Assembly: GCA_016235555.1 (NCBI GenBank)
Contig: JACRKC010000140.1
Span: forward strand, 1-51,700
Origin: Verrucomicrobiota bacterium
Lineage (GTDB): Bacteria > Verrucomicrobiota > Verrucomicrobiia > Opitutales > Opitutaceae
Length of the DNA: 51,700 nt
Direction of reading: 5' to 3'
Positions 7,984 through 51,700 of the stretch are shown here, in pieces. The notes under the pieces were generated by a model, which saw nothing but the letters and a program-made list of their open reading frames with translations, was not told the DNA's origin and did no database searches. A program made the translations under genes and the position numbers. Numbering within the stretch: the first letter of the stretch is position 1; every line of letters starts with the position of its first letter.

Positions 7984-8220
7984 TTGTAGGGCGGGGTCGC
8001 CGAACCCCGCCGGCTCAGCCGGAAAATTGCAGTCGGGGTGGAGCGCGTTGACCTCAACGCGCTTGGGTTACGACGTGAATCCTGGAAAGCGCGTTGGGGG
8101 CTCAACGCGCTCCACCGCTGCACCGCGCGGTCACGAATAAGCGCGAGTTCAACTGCACTGGTTCCGGCTCAGGGCACACACAGGCGCGGCGGGGTTCGGC
8201 GACCCCGCCCTCCTATGTAG
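7984..8220. repeat. Three-level nested palindrome (families B and A) before asnS
   Basis: Outer hairpins B2 (about 7984-8010) and B3 (about 8187-8220) are inverted copies of each other. Inside them lie GGCTCAGCCGGAA and TTCCGGCTCAGG. The centre is family A copy 1 (8038-8116), arms GTGGAGCGCGTTGA and CAACGCGCTCCACC. The flank after A1 (CGAATAAGCGCG, then GTTCAAC) reappears after A5 at 39379-39426. No gene is visible in 7832-8286. Confidence 0.8.
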
Positions 8221-12153: not shown

Positions 12154-12167
12154 CGCCGCTCGCGAAG

Positions 12168-12290
12168 GTGGAGCGCGTTGACCTCAACGCGCTGGTGGGA
12201 AAGTGGGAGCGGGTTTACCCCGCGACGCGTCGGGGCGTAAAGCCCCTCCCACCAAAAGCGCGTTGAGGGCAACGCGCTCCACCTTTACCG
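12168..12290. repeat. Family A palindrome, copy 2, with inner cargo
   Basis: Outer arms GGTGGAGCGCGTTGA and CAACGCGCTCCACC. The inner hairpin runs from GTGGGAGCGGGTTTACCCCG to the complementary GTAAAGCCCCTCCCAC. The same outer-plus-inner arrangement recurs at 37653 and, reversed inside, at 39255. It fills the junction between two convergent genes. Confidence 0.85.
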
Positions 12291-13223
12291 CCAGATGCCC
12301 TCGATGAAGACGTAGGTGCCGCCGCGTTTTTCCCAGCGCGGCTCCACCCACACGGCGCGGGCGCGCGGCGGGCGCTCAAAGTGTCCGCCCACCCAGAAAT
12401 AGCGGTCGCCATGCCACGCCCAGTAGCCGCCGACCCACACGTGACCGGACGGCGGACGGGCCGGCACCACCTCGCGCCGGGGGGGCGGCGGCGGTGGGAT
12501 TTGCACCATCACGACCTCGCGCGGTCCGGGTCCGTGGCCCACGACGCGCACGGGCGTCGCTTCCTGCCAGTAACCATCGACAAATACATAGCCGCTCCCG
12601 CGGCGCTCCCAGCGGGACTCCACCCACACGACATTGGCGCGCGGCGGCATTTCCCAGCGTCCCCCGATCCACACGTGCCTGCCGAGCCGCCAGCCCCAGT
12701 GCCCGCCGATCCAGACGTGCAACTGCGAGGGACGCTCCACGATGTATTCCCGCGGCGGTGGCGGTGGTGGCGCCGCCACGACAACCACTTCCTGCACGGG
12801 TGCGGGCGTCGACGGCACCGCGACCGTCGCTGGTGCCGGTGCGGGCGCCTCCTGCCAGTAACCTCCGGCCAGGACCACGCCGTTCGGCCGCTTTTCCCAG
12901 CGGGGCTCGACCCACACGACGTTGGCCCGCGGCGGAATTTCCCACCGCCCCGCCACCCACGCGTAGCGGCCCTCCTGCCAGCGCCAGTGACCGGCCACCC
13001 AGACGTGCTGGAGCGACGGACGCTCCTCAATGATCTCCTGGCTCACCTGCGGCGGCAGCGGCTCCCGGACGACCGCATTGTCCGGCAACGACGGGGCCAT
13101 CGGCACCGTCGGCGCATCGGGGATGGCCGGCACCTGGGCCATTCCCTGCGCACCCAGCCAGGTCAGGGCGAGCGCCAGCGCAGTGAGTCGGACGTTGCGG
13201 CCGGAAAAGGTCGTGGAATGCAT
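12285..13223 (-). CDS. Exported YXWGXW-repeat protein
   Basis: A 312-residue exported protein whose signal peptide ends near residue 30. It holds three repeats of the WXXGXW type (HVWVAGHWRWQEGRYAWVAG, HVWIGGHWGWRLGRHVWIGG, HVWVGGYWAWHGDRYFWVGG), each about 75 residues and each closed by a WVEPRWEKR-like strand and a GYWQ or GIWR ending. The repeats are joined by Pro-rich linkers. Proteins of this family are abundant in Planctomycetes and Verrucomicrobia and of unknown function, probably periplasmic or surface-located. Tandem repetition probably arose by internal duplication. Confidence 0.85.
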   Translation of the reverse strand: MHSTTFSGRNVRLTALALALTWLGAQGMAQVPAIPDAPTVPMAPSLPDNAVVREPLPPQVSQEIIEERPSLQHVWVAGHWRWQEGRYAWVAGRWEIPPRANVVWVEPRWEKRPNGVVLAGGYWQEAPAPAPATVAVPSTPAPVQEVVVVAAPPPPPPREYIVERPSQLHVWIGGHWGWRLGRHVWIGGRWEMPPRANVVWVESRWERRGSGYVFVDGYWQEATPVRVVGHGPGPREVVMVQIPPPPPPRREVVPARPPSGHVWVGGYWAWHGDRYFWVGGHFERPPRARAVWVEPRWEKRGGTYVFIEGIWR

Positions 13224-15693: not shown

Positions 15694-15831
15694 GATACCA
15701 ACGGTTGCTGAAGAATGGACTATTGGGTCCCGTGGGTAGGTCGGGGTTTATCCCCGACATCCGCCGTCGGCGGACAATGTCGGGCGTAAAGCCCGACCTA
15801 CGATGATCCAAATCTCAACAGCCGTTGGTAT
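15694..15831. repeat. Nested palindrome, family C copy 1
   Basis: Outer arms ATACCAACGGTTGCTGA and TCAACAGCCGTTGGTAT. The inner hairpin runs from GTAGGTCGGGGTTTATCCCC to GGCGTAAAGCCCGACCTAC (15736-15801). It begins four bases after the preceding element. Confidence 0.85.
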
Positions 15832-17080: not shown

Positions 17081-17565
17081 GGGGTGCGGCAAACGTGGCA
17101 AGCCACGCCCCACTTGCCAACCCGCGATTGCAACGTGGCGGGCACGGAGCGCATCTCGGTTTTCTGACTGAGGCGGGACGCCTCAGCCACGTGGACGAGG
17201 CGTCCCGCCTCGTCGATTGCAGAAAAGTGAGATGCGCCCGCGGGCACATTCCCGTGCCCGCATGGATCAAGGGCACCCGTTGAAATTCGCGCATCAGGCT
17301 GACGAAGGCCGAAAAGTAATGCGATGCTTCAGCCCGCACTTTTGTCCAACCCACCGCGGGCTCTCCGCGATCGCGATCCTACCCTCGTTGGCTCATTGCC
17401 CGGACCCCGGTAAGCCAACCACGCAGTTGAAAACCGGGGAAACGCCGTGGTAGCCGCGGTCACGGGGCGGGTGGTGGCGTCACACGTTTCTCCCGCCTCC
17501 TTCCGTCGGCTGCGACGGACGACGGCGTCGCTCCGCCCACGCGGACGCCGGGCGCGCCCGCCGCC
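17081..17565. other. Intergenic region holding a family G repeat
   Basis: No gene is seen in these 485 bases. The repeat at 17149-17237 has outer arms GCGCATCTC and GAGATGCGC. Inside are two hairpin arms reading GAGGCGGGACGCCTCAGCC and GACGAGGCGTCCCGCCTC. A copy in the opposite orientation occurs at 43514-43603. The rest shows neither repeats nor recognisable promoters. Confidence 0.7.
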
Positions 17566-22598: not shown

Positions 22599-22898
22599 GG
22601 CAGGCAGAAACGCGCGGCTAGAGCGGTTTCAGAAATTCCGGAGCTGTTTGTGTAGGTCGGGGTTTATCCCCGACACGTCGGGCCTTCAGCCGAATTGAAA
22701 CAGGTGGTGGGCGGGCCCGTCCCTGTGCCCGCATGGCGTCGCGTCACGTTGGTATCGAATGCGGGCACAGGGACGTGCCCGCCCACCACGATAGTCCAAA
22801 CACCAAAGGACGCTGGGATAACATTCTCCACATGCCGCTCCTTCGCGCCAGCTGCCGTTGCCAGCAAGCCGCCCACGATCTCCGCCCGCGCGTTTCGT
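22599..22898. repeat. Convergent junction with families C (partial) and E
   Basis: A GAGCGGTTTCAGAAATTCCG terminus at 22621-22640 is followed by a truncated family C hairpin (about 22652-22683). Family E copy 1 spans 22704-22789, arms GGTGGTGGGCGGG and CCCGCCCACCAC with ATGCGGGCACAGGGACG inside. The GAGCGGTTT terminus reappears inverted at about 29478-29497. No gene is visible. Confidence 0.75.
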
Positions 22899-27706: not shown

Positions 27707-28678
27707 ATGCTCATCCGCACGCCCCCCGATTGGGAACTCCCCGAGTCCGCCGCCACGCCCGAGCAGCACTACCACGCCCGCCGCGATTTCCTCAAAACCC
27801 TCGGGCTCGCCGGTGCCGCGTTCGCCGCGCACGATCTGCTCTCGACCGACGTCCTCGCCGCCACCGCCGGCTTTCCCACCAAGGTCAACCCGGCCTACCG
27901 CGATCCCGCGCTCAAGCCGTCGAGCTACGAGGCCATCACCAACTACAACAACTTCTACGAATTCGGCACCAGCAAGGAAGACCCCGTCGTCCTCGCCAAC
28001 CGCGGCTGGAAAACCGAGCCGTGGACCGTCGAGCTCGCCGGCCTCTGCCGCGCGCCGCAGAAACTCGATGTCAGCGACCTCGTGGCAAAAATGGACGGCA
28101 TCGAGCAGCGCGTTTACCGTTTCCGCTGCGTCGAGGCGTGGTCGATGATCATCCCGTGGGACGGCTTTCCTCTCGCGAAACTCATCGCGCTCGCCGATCC
28201 GCTGCCCGACGCGAAATTTCTCAAGATGACGACCTTCCTCGACCCGAAGGTCTCGCCCGGCCAGCGCCAGGGCAACCTCGACTACCCCTACGTCGAAGGC
28301 CTGCGCCTCGACGAGGCGAACCACGAACTCTCGTTCATCGCCACCGGCATCTACGGCAAACCGATTCCCAACCAAAACGGCGCCCCGCTGCGCCTCGTCG
28401 TGCCGTGGAAGTATGGCTTCAAATACGTGAAATCGATCGTGAAGTTCGAGTTTACCGCCAAGCAGCCGTTGAACACGTGGCAGGCGATGCAATCGCGCGA
28501 ATACGGCTTCTACGCCAACGTGAATCCGACCGTCGACCACCCGCGTTGGTCGCAAGCGAGCGAGCGCGTGATCGGCGGCGGCGGCCTCGGCTCGCGCCAG
28601 CGCACGCTCATGTTCAACGGCTACGAAAAACAGGTCGCCGGGCTCTACAAGGGCCTCGATCTGCGGAAGAATTATTGA
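27707..28678 (+). CDS. msrP: Methionine-sulfoxide reductase catalytic subunit MsrP
   Basis: A 323-residue periplasmic molybdopterin enzyme of the sulfite oxidase fold that reduces protein methionine sulfoxide. A Tat signal is visible (ARRDFLKTLGLAGAAFAAHD, residues 24-43). The Mo-coordinating cysteine is in YRFRCVEAWSMIIPWDGFPL near residue 142. The block YEFGTSKEDP and the C-terminal KYGFKYVKSIVKFEF are typical. The length matches E. coli MsrP. msrQ follows, separated by a family A palindrome. The ATG at 27707 places the Tat motif correctly; the frame is open upstream to 27407 without supporting homology. Confidence 0.95.
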   Translation: MLIRTPPDWELPESAATPEQHYHARRDFLKTLGLAGAAFAAHDLLSTDVLAATAGFPTKVNPAYRDPALKPSSYEAITNYNNFYEFGTSKEDPVVLANRGWKTEPWTVELAGLCRAPQKLDVSDLVAKMDGIEQRVYRFRCVEAWSMIIPWDGFPLAKLIALADPLPDAKFLKMTTFLDPKVSPGQRQGNLDYPYVEGLRLDEANHELSFIATGIYGKPIPNQNGAPLRLVVPWKYGFKYVKSIVKFEFTAKQPLNTWQAMQSREYGFYANVNPTVDHPRWSQASERVIGGGGLGSRQRTLMFNGYEKQVAGLYKGLDLRKNY

Positions 28679-28679
28679 G

Positions 28680-28759
28680 GTGGAGCGCGTTGACCCCAAC
28701 GCGCTTTCAGGACTTCCGTCCACTCCCAACCAGCGCGTTGAGGTCAACGCGCTCCACCT
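28680..28759. repeat. Family A palindrome, copy 3, between msrP and msrQ
   Basis: Arms GTGGAGCGCGTTGACCCCAA and the complementary arm ending CAACGCGCTCCACC. It begins two bases after the msrP stop and ends one base before the proposed msrQ start codon. It could be translated as an extra 27-residue N-terminus of MsrQ. Confidence 0.85.
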
Positions 28760-28760
28760 T

Positions 28761-29402: not shown

Positions 29403-29497
29403 GTCGGGCTTTACGCCCGACACTTGTCCGCCTGCGGCGGATGTCGGGGATAAACCCCGACCTACCCATACGGCTACGGATTTTCTGAAACCGCTCC
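29399..29497. repeat. Family C palindrome, copy 3
   Basis: The hairpin GTAGGTCGGGCTTTACGCCC to GGGATAAACCCCGACCTACC (29399-29466) contains the msrQ stop codon. It is followed by an inverted GAGCGGTTTCAGAAA terminus near 29480-29497. Confidence 0.8.
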
Positions 29498-33255: not shown

Positions 33256-33342
33256 GAGGTGGGCGGGCCGGTCCCCGTCCCCGCATGGACGGAGCCCGCG
33301 TGACCGTCGAAATGCGGGCCCCGGGACGTGCCCGCTCACCTC
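33256..33342. repeat. Family E palindrome, copy 2
   Basis: Arms GAGGTGGGCGGGCC and CCCGCTCACCTC with inner CCCCGCATGG and AATGCGGGCC. It shares arms and loop boundaries with copies at 22704 and, inside a coding region, 47893. Confidence 0.8.
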
Positions 33343-37551: not shown

Positions 37552-37652
37552 CAGGCAGCGGCGCGCGCGAAAGCGCTGGGCCTCAAGTGCAGCGACGGTC
37601 GGCAACCGCTTGGGAGGCGAACTGGCGCGCTGCCGGAACGGTGGCAGTCGAG

Positions 37653-37770
37653 GTGGAGCGCGGTGCCCTCAACGCGCTGGGGTGAAGGTGGGAGCGCGTT
37701 TACCCCGCGACTCGTCGGGACGTAAAGCCCCTCCCGTCAAAAGCGCGTTGAGGGCAACGCCCCCCACCTC
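37653..37770. repeat. Family A palindrome, copy 4, with inner cargo
   Basis: Outer arms GGTGGAGCGCGGTGCCC and GGGCAACGCCCCCCACC, with inner hairpin GTGGGAGCGCGTTTACCCCG to CGTAAAGCCCCTCCC. It is diverged from the copy at 12168 in both outer and inner parts. Confidence 0.8.
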
Positions 37771-37786
37771 AACGCACGCCTCCGGC

Positions 37787-39102: not shown

Positions 39103-39426
39103 TGGCCGCGAGCGTGAGCGAGTGGTTTCCGGGCGAACCACTCGCTCACGCTCGCAGCTACCCGGCGTTGCGATGTCACGATTCTGGGGGTCGCCGCACG
39201 GGCGGTCCGGCTCCGCCCGGCGGGCGGGGGACCTCAGCGGGAATGTTGCAGTCTAGGTGGAGCGCGTTGCCCTCAACGCGCTTTTTGTGGGAGGGGCTTT
39301 ACGCCCCGACGAGTCGCGGGGCAAACCCGCTCCCACCTTCAAACCAGCGCGTTGGGGTCAACGCGCTCCACCGTTGCACGGCGCGGTCCCGAATAAGCGC
39401 GCGTTCAACCGCCCGATTCCGGCTCA
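39103..39426. repeat. Convergent junction with families K and A
   Basis: Hairpin K2 (39103-39160) has arms GCGAGCGTGAGCGAGTGGTT and AACCACTCGCTCACGCTCGC. Family A copy 5 (39255-39373) has outer arms GGTGGAGCGCGTTGCCC and GGGTCAACGCGCTCCACC with the inner cargo reversed relative to copies at 12168 and 37653. The flank after A5 repeats that found after A1 (8117-8170). Confidence 0.85.
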
Positions 39427-43471: not shown

Positions 43472-43513
43472 CCCGCGCACCGTCCGACCGGGGCCCGGAG
43501 CGCGAACGACGGG

Positions 43514-43603
43514 ACGCATCTCACTTTGCTGCAATCGACGAGGCGGGACATCTCGTCCATGTGGCTGAGGCGTCCCGCCTCAGTCAGAAAAGTGAGATGC
43601 GCC
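43514..43603. repeat. Family G palindrome, copy 2
   Basis: The element runs from ACGCATCTCACTTTGCTG to CAGAAAAGTGAGATGCGC. It is the reverse orientation of the copy at 17149-17237. It fills the gap before the exported amidohydrolase. Confidence 0.85.
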
Positions 43604-44949: not shown

Positions 44950-45009
44950 CGCCGGCCGGTGGAGGTCGCGGCGGTTGACGCGCGCGCCGCCGCCGCATGT
45001 CCTGCGCGC

Positions 45010-48000
45010 GTGCCGGTTTCGTTCCGCCTCCTCTGCCTCGTCGCGTGCACGTGCGTGCTTCGCGCCGCTTCGTCCGGCGAGGTCGGGCGTCCGTTTCTGC
45101 AGGCCTTCTCGCCCCGCGACTACCGCGCGCACCAGCAGATCTGGATGGGCGCGCAGGCGCCCGACGGCGTCATGTGGTTCGGCAACAGCCACTCCGTCCT
45201 CAGCTACGACGGCAGCGCGTGGCGGCGGATCGAGGTGCCGACCAGCTTCGTGCGCGCACTCGTCCTTGGCCGCGACGGTCGCGTCTACGTGGGCGGCACG
45301 GACCAACTGGGCTGCATCGCGTCCGATCCCACGGGACAGCACGTCTTTGTCTCCCTGCTGGATCATCTGCCGCCCGACCGGCGACAACTCGGCGTGATCT
45401 GGAGCGCGGCCGCGACCACCGATGCGGTGTGGTTCGCGACCGAGACCACGGTGTTGCGCTGGAGCAGCGGAAAATTCGAGACCTGGACGATGGCCAACAA
45501 GCCGCGGCAATACCTGCAGGCCGTCGGCGACGAACTCTTCCTCCATCGCCAGGGCGTCGGTTTGTTCCGTTTCGACGGCCGCGAATTCGCGGCCGTCTCG
45601 GAAGCGCCCGAGTTCGCGCAATCGAGCGCCTGCTTTGCCGAGCCGCAAGCCGACGGCAGCATCCTGCTCGGGCTCTCCGCCGGCAAATTCTTCGAGTTGC
45701 GCGCGGGTCGGTTGACCGCGCGGCCGACACCGGTCGATGCGCTGATCGCCCGCTCCCGCCCGCGGCTGATGGTGCGCCTACCTGACGGCACGCATGTGTT
45801 CGATACCAACGGCCTCGGCGTGATCGTGACGGATGCGGCGTTTAATTTTCTCACGCGCGTGACCGGCGCATCCGGGCTCGGCAGCGACGTCGTGCTCAGT
45901 CTCACGCCGGACCGCGAGGGCGGCGTCTGGGTGGGCTCCAACAACGGCGTGGTCCGCCTCGAACCGATGCCACGTTTCTCCGCGTTCGACCAGGCCGTCG
46001 GGCTGCCGCGCGGGCTCATCCACGATTTGCGCCGGCACGACGGAACGCTGTTCGCCGCGACCCCGGCCGGGCTGTTCCGCCTCGTGCCCGCCGGTCCGGC
46101 TACGGCGGAGCCCGCGCATTTTGCCCCGGTCCCGCTCGAACCCGGGATCTGCTGGTCGCTCGCCTCGCACGCCGACGGTCTGCTGATCGCCAACGCCAGC
46201 GGCGTGCTGCAACTCCCGGCCGCCGGCCCGGCCCGCAAAATTTTTCCCGTGCCCGGCGGCGTCAGCAAACTCGCCGTGCTGCCGCGTCATCCGGACCGGG
46301 TGTTCGTGGGCCGCTTCACGGGTTTCAATGTCCTGCACCGCACGGACGGCGCGTGGCGCGACGAGGGCGGGCCGGCGGGGTTGTCAACCGAGGTGCGCAC
46401 GATCGCGGAGTCGGCCGACGGCGCGTTGTGGCTCGGCACGCCCACGCGCGGCTTCCTGAAACTCACGCGCCCGCCCGGGAGCGAACACTGGTCGGACGCG
46501 ACCGTCACCGCCTACCGCGAACAACGCGGCCTGCCGCCCGGCCAGGGCTGGAGTCACGTCTACCAGGTCGGCGACTCGGTCGTATTCGTCACCGACGCCG
46601 GCACGTTTCTCTACGACGCCGCGGCGGATCGGTTCGTGCTCGCCGCGGCCTACCAACTCGCCGGCCGCCACGCCCGCACGCAATTGTGGCCGCTCGCGCC
46701 CACGGATCGCGCCGACCGCGTCTGGGCGCAGGCCGACACGGAGGACACCGATCTGCCGCGCCAGCTCGGCGCGCTCACGCTGCGTGCGGCCGGACCGGCG
46801 GAGTTTGCGCCGCTGCCGCGCAAAATTCTCGAGCGCGTCGCGTTCGGCGGCGCGCGTGCGCTCAGTTGGGAGCGCGGCGCCGACGGCGAAGTGCTGTGGC
46901 TCGGCGGCCCCGACGGCCTGGTGCGCGCGGACCTCGGCCGGTCCGAGCCGCCGGCGGCGAAATTCGACGTGCTGCTCCGCGAGGTCGCGCTGCCCGCCGG
47001 AGCGCGGCGCGTGCCGGCGACCGAGGCGACCGCGCCGCGCTTCGACTACGGCCCCGCGCCGCTGACGTTCACGTTCAGTGCGACGCGCTTCGGCGCCGGC
47101 CCGGGTTTGCGTTACCAGACGCGACTGCGCGGCTACGATGTCGAGTGGTCGCCGTGGAGCCCGCGCCCGGAGGCCACCTACACGCACGTGTGGGGCGGGC
47201 CGTTTGTGTTCGAGGCGCGCGCGCAGGACCCCGACGGCCGCGTGAGCACGACGGCGGCGTTTGCGTTTTCCGTGACGCCGCCGTGGCAATTCCGGCCGGT
47301 TGCGATCGTCGGCTACGTGGCCGCACTGTTCCTGGCGGTGTTTGGCTTTGTGCGGTGGCGGCTGGCGCTCGCCCGCCGCCGGGAGACCGAATTGGCGGCG
47401 CTCGTCACGCAGCGCACGCACGACCTCGCGAGCGCGCGCGACCAGGCCGAGGCGGCGAGCCGCGCGAAGAGCGCGTTTCTCGCCGCGATGAGTCACGAAC
47501 TGCGCACGCCGCTCAACGGCGTGATCGGCTACGCGCAAATCCTGCAGGGCGACCGCCGTCTCGCGCCCGACCAGCAGGAGCGCCTGCGCATCGTCCAGTC
47601 GAGCGGCGAGCACCTGCTGCGCATGATCAACGACGTGCTCGACCTCGCGAAAATCGAGGCGGGCAAGATCGACCTGCGCCCCGCGCCCTTCGCGCTGGTC
47701 GAACTCGTGCGCGACCTCGCCGCCACGCACGCCGCGGCCGCCGCCACCAAGGGCCTCGCGTTCGCGATCGACGCGGCGCCGGACCTGCCCGTCTGGGTCG
47801 AGGGCGATGCGCACAAGCTCCGGCAGATCCTCGACAACCTCCTCGGCAACGCGGTGAAGTTCACCCCCCACGGCGGCGTCACGCTGCGGGTGGTGGGCGG
47901 GCGCGTCCCTGCGCCCGCATTCGCCGCCATCCAGCCCGGCGAACCATGCGGGCACGGGGACGTGCCCGCCCACCTCCACTTCGCCGTCACCGACACCGGT

Positions 48001-48867
48001 CCCGGCATCGCGCCGGAGGATCAGGCGCGGCTCTTTCAACCGTTCGAACAGGCGCGCGTCGCACGCCCCGCGGCCCCCGGCACGGGTCTCGGCCTCGCCA
48101 TCAGCCGTGCGCTGGTCGAGCGCATGGGCGGCACGCTCGCGCTGGCGAGCGCGCCCGGCGCCGGCAGCACGTTTTCCTTCGCGATCGCGCTGCCGCCCTG
48201 CGGGCCGGGCGCGCTGGCCGGCACCGCGCGCATCACCGGCTACGCCGGCCCGCGGCGCCACGTGCTCATCGTCGACGATCACGCGGTGAACCGCCGGCTC
48301 GTCGTCGATCTGCTCACGCCGCTCGGCTTCACGTGCGCCGACTACGCCTCCGGCGGCGCCGCCCTCGCCGAACTGAAAGCCGGCGCCACGCCGTGGCCCG
48401 ACCTGGCCATCGTCGACGTGCGCCTGGGCGAACTCGACGGGCTCGCCGTGACGCGCGCGCTGCGCGCCCTCCCGCGCGGGACGGGCCTGCGCGTGCTGCT
48501 CACCTCGGCCTCCGTCCTTACGTTCAACCTCGAGGAAGGCCGGCGCGCCGGCTGCGATGAATTCCTCCCCAAGCCGTTTCGCGCCGAAGAACTCCTCGAC
48601 ACGCTCCGCCGGTTGCTCGCCTTGGAGTGGCGCGAAACCGCGCCGGACCCGCTACCGGCCGCCGAGCGGGCGGCGGCCCCGCTGCCCGAGGCGCTGCGTT
48701 CCACCCTGCGCGACGCGCTCGCCCAGGGCGATCTGGAGGCGCTCCGCCGGCACCTCGCCGAGGCACGCGCGGCGCAGCCCTCGCTGGCCGCGGCGCTCGA
48801 CGAACTCGATGCGGCCGCCGCGGGTTTCGACCTTGCGCGGCTGCGCCAACGCCTCGCCGCCGACTGA
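45010..48867 (+). CDS. Hybrid sensor histidine kinase (Reg_prop, Y_Y_Y, HisKA, HATPase, REC)
   Basis: A 1285-residue one-protein two-component system. A signal peptide precedes a large periplasmic Reg_prop beta-propeller (about 30-690). A Y_Y_Y domain lies near 690-755 and a transmembrane segment near 762-785. The HisKA domain has His829 in SHELRTPLNG. HATPase follows: N box near 935, DTGPGI near 995, GTGLGL near 1024. A receiver domain starts near 1084 with phospho-acceptor Asp1136 and Lys1188. A helical tail ends the protein. Residues 962-990 are encoded by an in-frame family E palindrome inside the HATPase domain. The GTG at 45010 gives a signal peptide; another GTG in frame lies at 44959. 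Confidence 0.9.
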   Translation: MPVSFRLLCLVACTCVLRAASSGEVGRPFLQAFSPRDYRAHQQIWMGAQAPDGVMWFGNSHSVLSYDGSAWRRIEVPTSFVRALVLGRDGRVYVGGTDQLGCIASDPTGQHVFVSLLDHLPPDRRQLGVIWSAAATTDAVWFATETTVLRWSSGKFETWTMANKPRQYLQAVGDELFLHRQGVGLFRFDGREFAAVSEAPEFAQSSACFAEPQADGSILLGLSAGKFFELRAGRLTARPTPVDALIARSRPRLMVRLPDGTHVFDTNGLGVIVTDAAFNFLTRVTGASGLGSDVVLSLTPDREGGVWVGSNNGVVRLEPMPRFSAFDQAVGLPRGLIHDLRRHDGTLFAATPAGLFRLVPAGPATAEPAHFAPVPLEPGICWSLASHADGLLIANASGVLQLPAAGPARKIFPVPGGVSKLAVLPRHPDRVFVGRFTGFNVLHRTDGAWRDEGGPAGLSTEVRTIAESADGALWLGTPTRGFLKLTRPPGSEHWSDATVTAYREQRGLPPGQGWSHVYQVGDSVVFVTDAGTFLYDAAADRFVLAAAYQLAGRHARTQLWPLAPTDRADRVWAQADTEDTDLPRQLGALTLRAAGPAEFAPLPRKILERVAFGGARALSWERGADGEVLWLGGPDGLVRADLGRSEPPAAKFDVLLREVALPAGARRVPATEATAPRFDYGPAPLTFTFSATRFGAGPGLRYQTRLRGYDVEWSPWSPRPEATYTHVWGGPFVFEARAQDPDGRVSTTAAFAFSVTPPWQFRPVAIVGYVAALFLAVFGFVRWRLALARRRETELAALVTQRTHDLASARDQAEAASRAKSAFLAAMSHELRTPLNGVIGYAQILQGDRRLAPDQQERLRIVQSSGEHLLRMINDVLDLAKIEAGKIDLRPAPFALVELVRDLAATHAAAAATKGLAFAIDAAPDLPVWVEGDAHKLRQILDNLLGNAVKFTPHGGVTLRVVGGRVPAPAFAAIQPGEPCGHGDVPAHLHFAVTDTGPGIAPEDQARLFQPFEQARVARPAAPGTGLGLAISRALVERMGGTLALASAPGAGSTFSFAIALPPCGPGALAGTARITGYAGPRRHVLIVDDHAVNRRLVVDLLTPLGFTCADYASGGAALAELKAGATPWPDLAIVDVRLGELDGLAVTRALRALPRGTGLRVLLTSASVLTFNLEEGRRAGCDEFLPKPFRAEELLDTLRRLLALEWRETAPDPLPAAERAAAPLPEALRSTLRDALAQGDLEALRRHLAEARAAQPSLAAALDELDAAAAGFDLARLRQRLAAD
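47893..47974. repeat. Family E palindrome inside the sensor kinase gene
   Basis: Arms GTGGGCGGGCGCGTCCCTGC and CACGGGGACGTGCCCGCCCAC (broken here by one extra base pair position) match the intergenic copies at 22704-22789 and 33256-33342. The insert region is 87 bases (29 codons), so it preserves the frame. Confidence 0.85.

Positions 48868-48954: not shown

Positions 48955-51700
<2,746 letters not shown>

Follow-up and report, generated by a model that had tools for sequence, protein, structure and literature searches.

The 51,700-nucleotide stretch of DNA analysed here (the window) makes up an entire contig of an 8.03-Mb draft genome in 140 contigs, and its right-hand end encodes a hybrid histidine kinase, copy A, together with a tandem paralogue, copy B (Table 1). 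The nearest named homologues of the kinase come from Opitutaceae and other Verrucomicrobia MAGs. Copy B is cut by the contig end; because contig C136 opens with a perfect 141-base overlap to positions 51560–51700 of the window, the two contigs can be joined and the gene can be read beyond position 51700. Both copies give HATPase_c matches well over the cut-off, despite the inserts that their ATP-binding domains contain.

Table 1. Positions of the kinases, their domains and the family E elements in the window
Feature	Position	Strand	Remarks
Hybrid histidine kinase, copy A (propeller, HisKA, HATPase_c, receiver)	44959..48867	+	1302 residues, open throughout
HATPase_c domain holding the element, residues 949-1078	47803..48192	+	Pfam, family E-value 4.9e-25
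Family E REP dimer (REPIN-type), VVGGRVPAPAFAAIQPGEPCGHGDVPAHL	47890..47976	+	29 in-frame codons
Left REP half of kinase element, tag and small hairpin	47892..47920	+	0 mismatches to family E pattern
Right REP half of kinase element, inverted	47946..47974	-	0 mismatches to family E pattern
Other family E REP dimer	22706..22787	+	No gene on either side by coding model
Other family E REP dimer	33258..33340	+	Halves with 1 and 2 mismatches; no gene on either side by coding model
Tandem kinase paralogue, copy B	48955..51700	+	Cut by contig end; continues on contig C136

A REP dimer in the HATPase domain of copy A

The element in copy A is an imperfect palindrome of exactly 29 codons, lying in phase 0 of the kinase reading frame between the residues VTLR and HFAVTDTGPGI. 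It is the palindrome that the earlier note had placed at 47893–47974, inside the HATPase domain of a sensor kinase and ahead of FAVTDTGPGI, a location borne out by the Pfam match. Each of its two inverted halves consists of a GTGG tag and, after it, a separate small hairpin, GCGGGC-N10-GCCCGC (by inspection), and the pattern that defines the REPs of this family, termed E, is GGTGGGCGGGCNCGTCCCNGNGCCCGCAT. An unpaired tetranucleotide beside a small stem-loop characterizes the superfamily of GTAG/GTGG-tagged REPs, two inverted REPs in one hairpin characterize REPINs, and a REP inside a reading frame, itself in frame and open, is an intragenic REP: the kinase element has all of these properties. 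Folded as single-stranded DNA (with DNA parameters), it reaches −45.3 kcal/mol (z −8.5), which none of 200 shuffled sequences equalled. A search of Rfam returned nothing above the gathering score; the one sub-threshold hit, to mir-448, is a chance match that scored 19.8 bits where 90 are required. The kin copies previously reported at 22704 and 33256 are also real (Table 1).

An AlphaFold2 model, built from 51 aligned sequences and numbered as residue minus 814, has a pLDDT of 88. Strands 159–167 and 191–198 are confidently placed, and the stretch between them lies at a pLDDT of about 51–54; the peptide encoded by the element is thus modelled as a disordered β-hairpin loop. The best fold match of the model is GacS (7z8n). 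Another solved kinase, 7p8e, also carries a long insertion, peculiar to it, at this position of the alignment, so the loop is permissive in kinases generally.

Families E and T across the genome

The family E half matches the genome 55 times on the forward and 55 times on the reverse strand, as against 0 and 0 for the reversed pattern; the family therefore has the dispersed copies typical of the tagged REP superfamily, and the zero control counts rule out a chance palindrome in the kinase. The broader reading, in which the palindrome is due to chance, an assembly error or a pseudogene, could draw on the draft state of the genome, many of whose 140 contigs begin or end at REPs, yet we consider it extremely improbable: the kinase is open over 1302 codons with all its domains, and in an independent assembly (L134) the corresponding site likewise carries a family E element, in frame.

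The census of elements covered 108 of the 110 family E REPs and 88 of the 100 family T REPs (the second family, described below), the unfetched T REPs being those at contig ends. These gave 68 E and 66 T elements, 40 of the 68 being +− pairs by pattern; once those lying too close to an end (7 E and 12 T) had been set aside, 61 and 54, or 115 in all, were classified, single REPs being assigned an assumed span of 84 bases. The codon model with which their flanks were scored was trained on 16 kinase ORFs and recovers the true frame in 95.5% of 180-base windows, as checked on that same training set only. By this measure 15 of the 115 elements (8 dimers by pattern and 7 single REPs) are in frame and open inside genes, namely 5/61 of family E and 10/54 of family T. 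The search for family E copies overlapping coding sequence that had been proposed thus yields five in frame, the kinase included, while for 40 of the 61 the model detects no coding signal to the left or to the right; like REPINs, the family lies mostly outside genes.

The Pfam assignments of the hosts of in-frame elements are diverse. For family E they are this kinase, two TIR/TPR-type proteins (in one of which, L259, the TIR match is below the cut-off), RecD2 and a glycosyltransferase. Family T is found in copy B, a HisC-type aminotransferase, a small-domain methyltransferase (PrmC/HemK by structure matches), an M20 peptidase, a CusA-like pump, a family 9 glycosyltransferase, a PMT-type (ArnT-like) protein and a TPR protein, as well as in L277, which has a ManA-like look with both matches below their cut-offs, and L285, which has no match. 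In two of these hosts the alignment to a solved structure breaks at or around the element: HisC against 3hdo (107|135; element 108–133) and RecD2, where the break surrounds the element, against 3e1s (491|524; element 501–523). In the two TIR/TPR-type proteins (L038 1448–1531 and L259 1632–1715) the family E REP sits at a like place, after a hydrophobic segment, and the element peptide is NAGAGTRPPT; this is perhaps a second recurrent, or a duplicated, site.

Three candidates for frame-breaking intragenic copies, with coding signal on both sides and no common frame, were rejected: L249 and L282 sit at gene junctions, each overlapping the end of one ORF, and at L311 the coding signals are on opposite strands. 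At L276 (1500–1583) a family T REP provides the stop codon of the upstream gene, much as PMC3733652 describes for other REPs. No target-site motif emerged from the flanks of 40 E and 20 T dimers, which display weak end preferences only (for E dimers, G then A before and T then C after). Beyond this genome, family E has matches in 4 of the 18 other genomes tested (G057, G059, G061 and G063) and family T in 6 of the 18, and the family E pattern has 0 matches in 10 relatives, including G003.

Family T was recognised through copy B. The earlier note had pointed to the HATPase domain of the paralogue beyond 51700 as a comparison, and its loop also contains a REP dimer, though of another family: the palindrome TTGTAGGGCGGGGTC... 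(z −8.5), which keeps the frame and occupies the corresponding position, belongs to a GTAG-type family with 51+49 matches in the genome and 0 for the control. The RAYT of family T is a 178-residue ORF at L112:78-614(-), which matches the NCBIfam REP-associated tyrosine transposase NF047646 with 108 bits (cut-off 80) and has T REPs on both sides, so that this family has the cognate RAYT flanked by the same REP that is expected of REPINs. No such gene was found for family E among 10 Y1_Tnp matches, searched in fetched flanks of up to 1.5 kb with up to 5 substitutions in a draft assembly where a gene may be missed, and we accordingly term family E only 'REPIN-type'. At least five other Y1_Tnp loci (L106, L110, L113, L114 and L115) are flanked on both sides by REP-like hairpins of a different type.

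Several further repeats were noted. A further REP type, GTAGGTCGGGGTTTATCCCCGAC, has several copies, at 15733–15777, 22621–22675 and 29442–29496 of the window, and hairpins resembling it flank the Y1_Tnp genes at L110, L113 and L115. A dispersed inverted repeat built on GTGGAGCGCGTTGA..TCAACGCGCT occurs at 8014–8156, 12162–12300, 28656–28760, 37629–37773 and 39233–39412, with longer homology between its copies. Inverted copies of a GAGGCGGGACGCCTC-type repeat, 92% alike, lie at 17149–17239 and 43512–43602, the latter inside a long open frame upstream of an amidohydrolase-like ORF.

The loop in homologous kinases

In the alignment of the HATPase region (in which L047 is the kinase itself and L080, a second locus of the same gene, was left out) the loop measures 32 residues in copy A, 33 in copy B and 10–29 in the other rows. 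Among orthologues with a short loop the nearest is G025, with 65% identity across the whole protein; it reads VTLCVVTAADRVTFSVVDTGPG here, a net 21 codons shorter. The earlier note had put the addition at about 29 codons and had looked to a homologue lacking exactly these as support for insertion. The figure holds for the length and phase of the element, but the net gain relative to G025 is 21, and a homologue without exactly these 29 codons was not found among those aligned. Since exact removal of the 87 bases would leave fewer loop residues than any of the homologues has, insertion alone does not account for the loop, and the alignment indicates that native loop residues were lost or replaced as well. 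Of 73 distinct loops, that of copy B has the highest inverted-repeat score (24), followed by those of this kinase (20), of one copy in G064 (15) and of the L134 kinase (13); the score after these is 12, and the others do not exceed 10.

The L134 kinase (G057A, from genome G057) is orthologous to copy A (G000A), and the left half of its family E element is a variant with three mismatches, in which the small hairpin is still paired. By eye, the two elements have the same orientation and the right end at the same codon distance, the left end of the L134 element being one codon nearer. A single inherited insertion would predict that the two kinases group together. In the tree of the C-terminal modules, from which the loop columns were omitted and in which 8 of 14 inner branches are open, the L134 kinase groups with copy B in a clade of six rows (96/99) to which copy A does not belong, and forced pairing of the L134 kinase with copy A is rejected (p-AU 0.0018). 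In the sensor tree copy A joins G063 (99/97) and the L134 kinase joins G059x (100/99), and their pairing is again rejected (p-AU 4e-5). One vertically inherited insertion common to both kinases is therefore ruled out.

Other copies have filled the loop with a different kind of repeat. In 7 of 17 aligned copies it contains a heptamer-like stretch that departs from (CTCAACT)3 at 1 to 6 of its 21 positions, a closeness that none of 300 windows from other parts of these genes reached; the remaining ten copies (three with REP dimers and seven without a recognised repeat) come no nearer than 10–12 mismatches. The weakest heptamer loops, with 6 mismatches, are those of G059y and G064y, and the latter also has AACCCGG units (22 matches in that genome against 0 for the control), some of them inside the same gene. 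Genome counts of CTCAACT in G000 (43+32, against 38+26 for the reversed pattern) say little, since reversal turns this pattern into almost the same repeat. In G059, CTCAACT arrays (for example C13:35676-35799 and C76:17356-17479) often form inverted pairs about 100 bases apart, which resemble a second kind of palindromic element. Taken over all aligned copies, the loop is long and repeat-derived in 10/17.

It is quite possible, although we would stop short of calling it probable, that the loop before the G1 box received REP dimers of two families, three or more in all, and a number of heptamer arrays independently and in frame; it would then be a recurrent landing site, either because the site attracts such repeats or because a longer loop is selected, a reading that adds to in-frame insertion as such. 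The different REP family in copy B, the heptamer arrays and the rejection of a sister relationship between copy A and the L134 kinase all favour it. The shared orientation and right end of their elements speak against it, however, as do the many open branches of the C-terminal tree; moreover, the long insert of 7p8e implies that tolerance may suffice.

The same shared features would be expected had a short gene conversion, between kinase copies or between genomes, spread one family E insertion and so mimicked two, an account that we rate as possible, though not as probable. Exchange has probably happened in these genes, since identity between copies A and B is 0.81 in the HK modules and 0.28 in the sensors, and the HK and receiver modules of the tandem kinases cluster otherwise than the sensors, so that modules have been either exchanged or kept alike. 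The top-scoring match of the L134 element among 46 others (only three of them other G057 dimers) is that of copy A, by 51.5 to 51.0 for the next, although at a lower identity (0.76 versus 0.82). Conversely, the element of copy A is nearer to a copy in its own genome (0.88) than to that of the L134 kinase (0.76, rank 15 of 46). Between the two kinases, similarity at four-fold sites next to the loop does not exceed that in the rest of the domain, which argues against a long conversion tract and for reinsertion, a short or old tract being compatible with it; and conversion leaves the family T element of copy B unexplained.

That the added loop is functional, altering ATP binding, lid movement or partner contacts and being kept by selection, is in our view unlikely. 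Its length and repeat-derived make-up in so many copies would fit, as would the preservation of the family E arms in the L134 kinase, where 12/15 four-fold sites are identical as against 0.63–0.75 in the HATPase/HK flanks, but this difference is not a clear one. Furthermore, the loop sequences differ wholly between copies, the stretch is modelled as disordered, and the other in-frame elements sit in unrelated proteins. The alternative raised in the earlier note, an element that tunes nucleotide binding, found no support here.

Probable in-frame insertion and known systems

We regard it as very probable that a family E REP dimer inserted in frame into the β-hairpin loop that leads to the G1 box, where it now gives rise, on translation, to a disordered loop tolerated by the domain. 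Homologues without the element, 14 other in-frame elements of two families and the structure model support this, and with it the suggestion made previously that a mobile element is tolerated here as a surface loop. In other bacteria it is established that RAYT transposases handle such repeats as single-stranded hairpins, and REPs built like these presumably spread in that way. The dimer in the kinase, like family E as a whole, would accordingly have moved as single-stranded hairpin DNA handled by such an enzyme; insertions that break a protein would be lost, whereas open, in-frame ones in a permissive loop would remain, and the element is presumably translated as a nearly neutral loop that the domain tolerates.

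Di Nocera et al. (2013; PMC3733652) report the highest number of intragenic GTAG REPs in Opitutus terrae, REP dimers that encode 20–30 residues in frame in many unrelated proteins, one O. terrae REP family that is mostly GTGG-tagged, REPs that can supply stop codons, and different REPs at about the same site in recB of two Xanthomonas species. As described there, the O. terrae elements resemble the kinase element in being in-frame dimers from the same phylum (and, by the kinase homologues, the same bacterial family), and family E is likened to them by description and by its GTGG tag. The lineage is therefore not new for the phenomenon: in-frame REP insertion as such is already known in this bacterial group, and the kinase case adds a member. 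Unlike the O. terrae cases described there, the present one concerns a single kinase loop, which holds a different REP family in each tandem copy and, in other genomes, family E again or heptamers.

REPINs, as described by Bertels and Rainey (2011; PMC3116915), are dispersed, mainly extragenic doublets of inverted REPs, which fold into a single large hairpin and are linked to RAYT genes. The present elements share the inverted doublet and the dispersal, and family T the RAYT link; the kinase element differs in lying inside a gene, and its family in having no RAYT found here. The earlier note had likened the element to Rickettsia palindromic elements, described in a review (PMC10969869) as palindromic repeats of about 150 bases that occur in frame in unrelated proteins. 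The comparison, by description only, stands for the effect but not for the make-up: this is a GTGG-tagged REP dimer of about 82 bases, in another lineage, where intragenic REPs are known from O. terrae.

The recurrence of different repeats at one loop of related kinases seems, by contrast, to be new: in open-licence PMC literature we found no report of repeated filling of one kinase loop, of a REP in frame in a histidine kinase loop, or of a heptanucleotide repeat in Verrucomicrobia. With its short-loop orthologues, the kinase would be a clear case, judged from sequence comparison, of mobile repeats becoming protein sequence outside Rickettsia. If the loop is indeed a recurrent landing site, selfish repeats repeatedly extend an ATP-binding domain at one spot; were this repeated filling in tandem kinases confirmed, nature would have provided a test of whether insertions of this kind are only tolerated, drawn to the site or favoured by selection.
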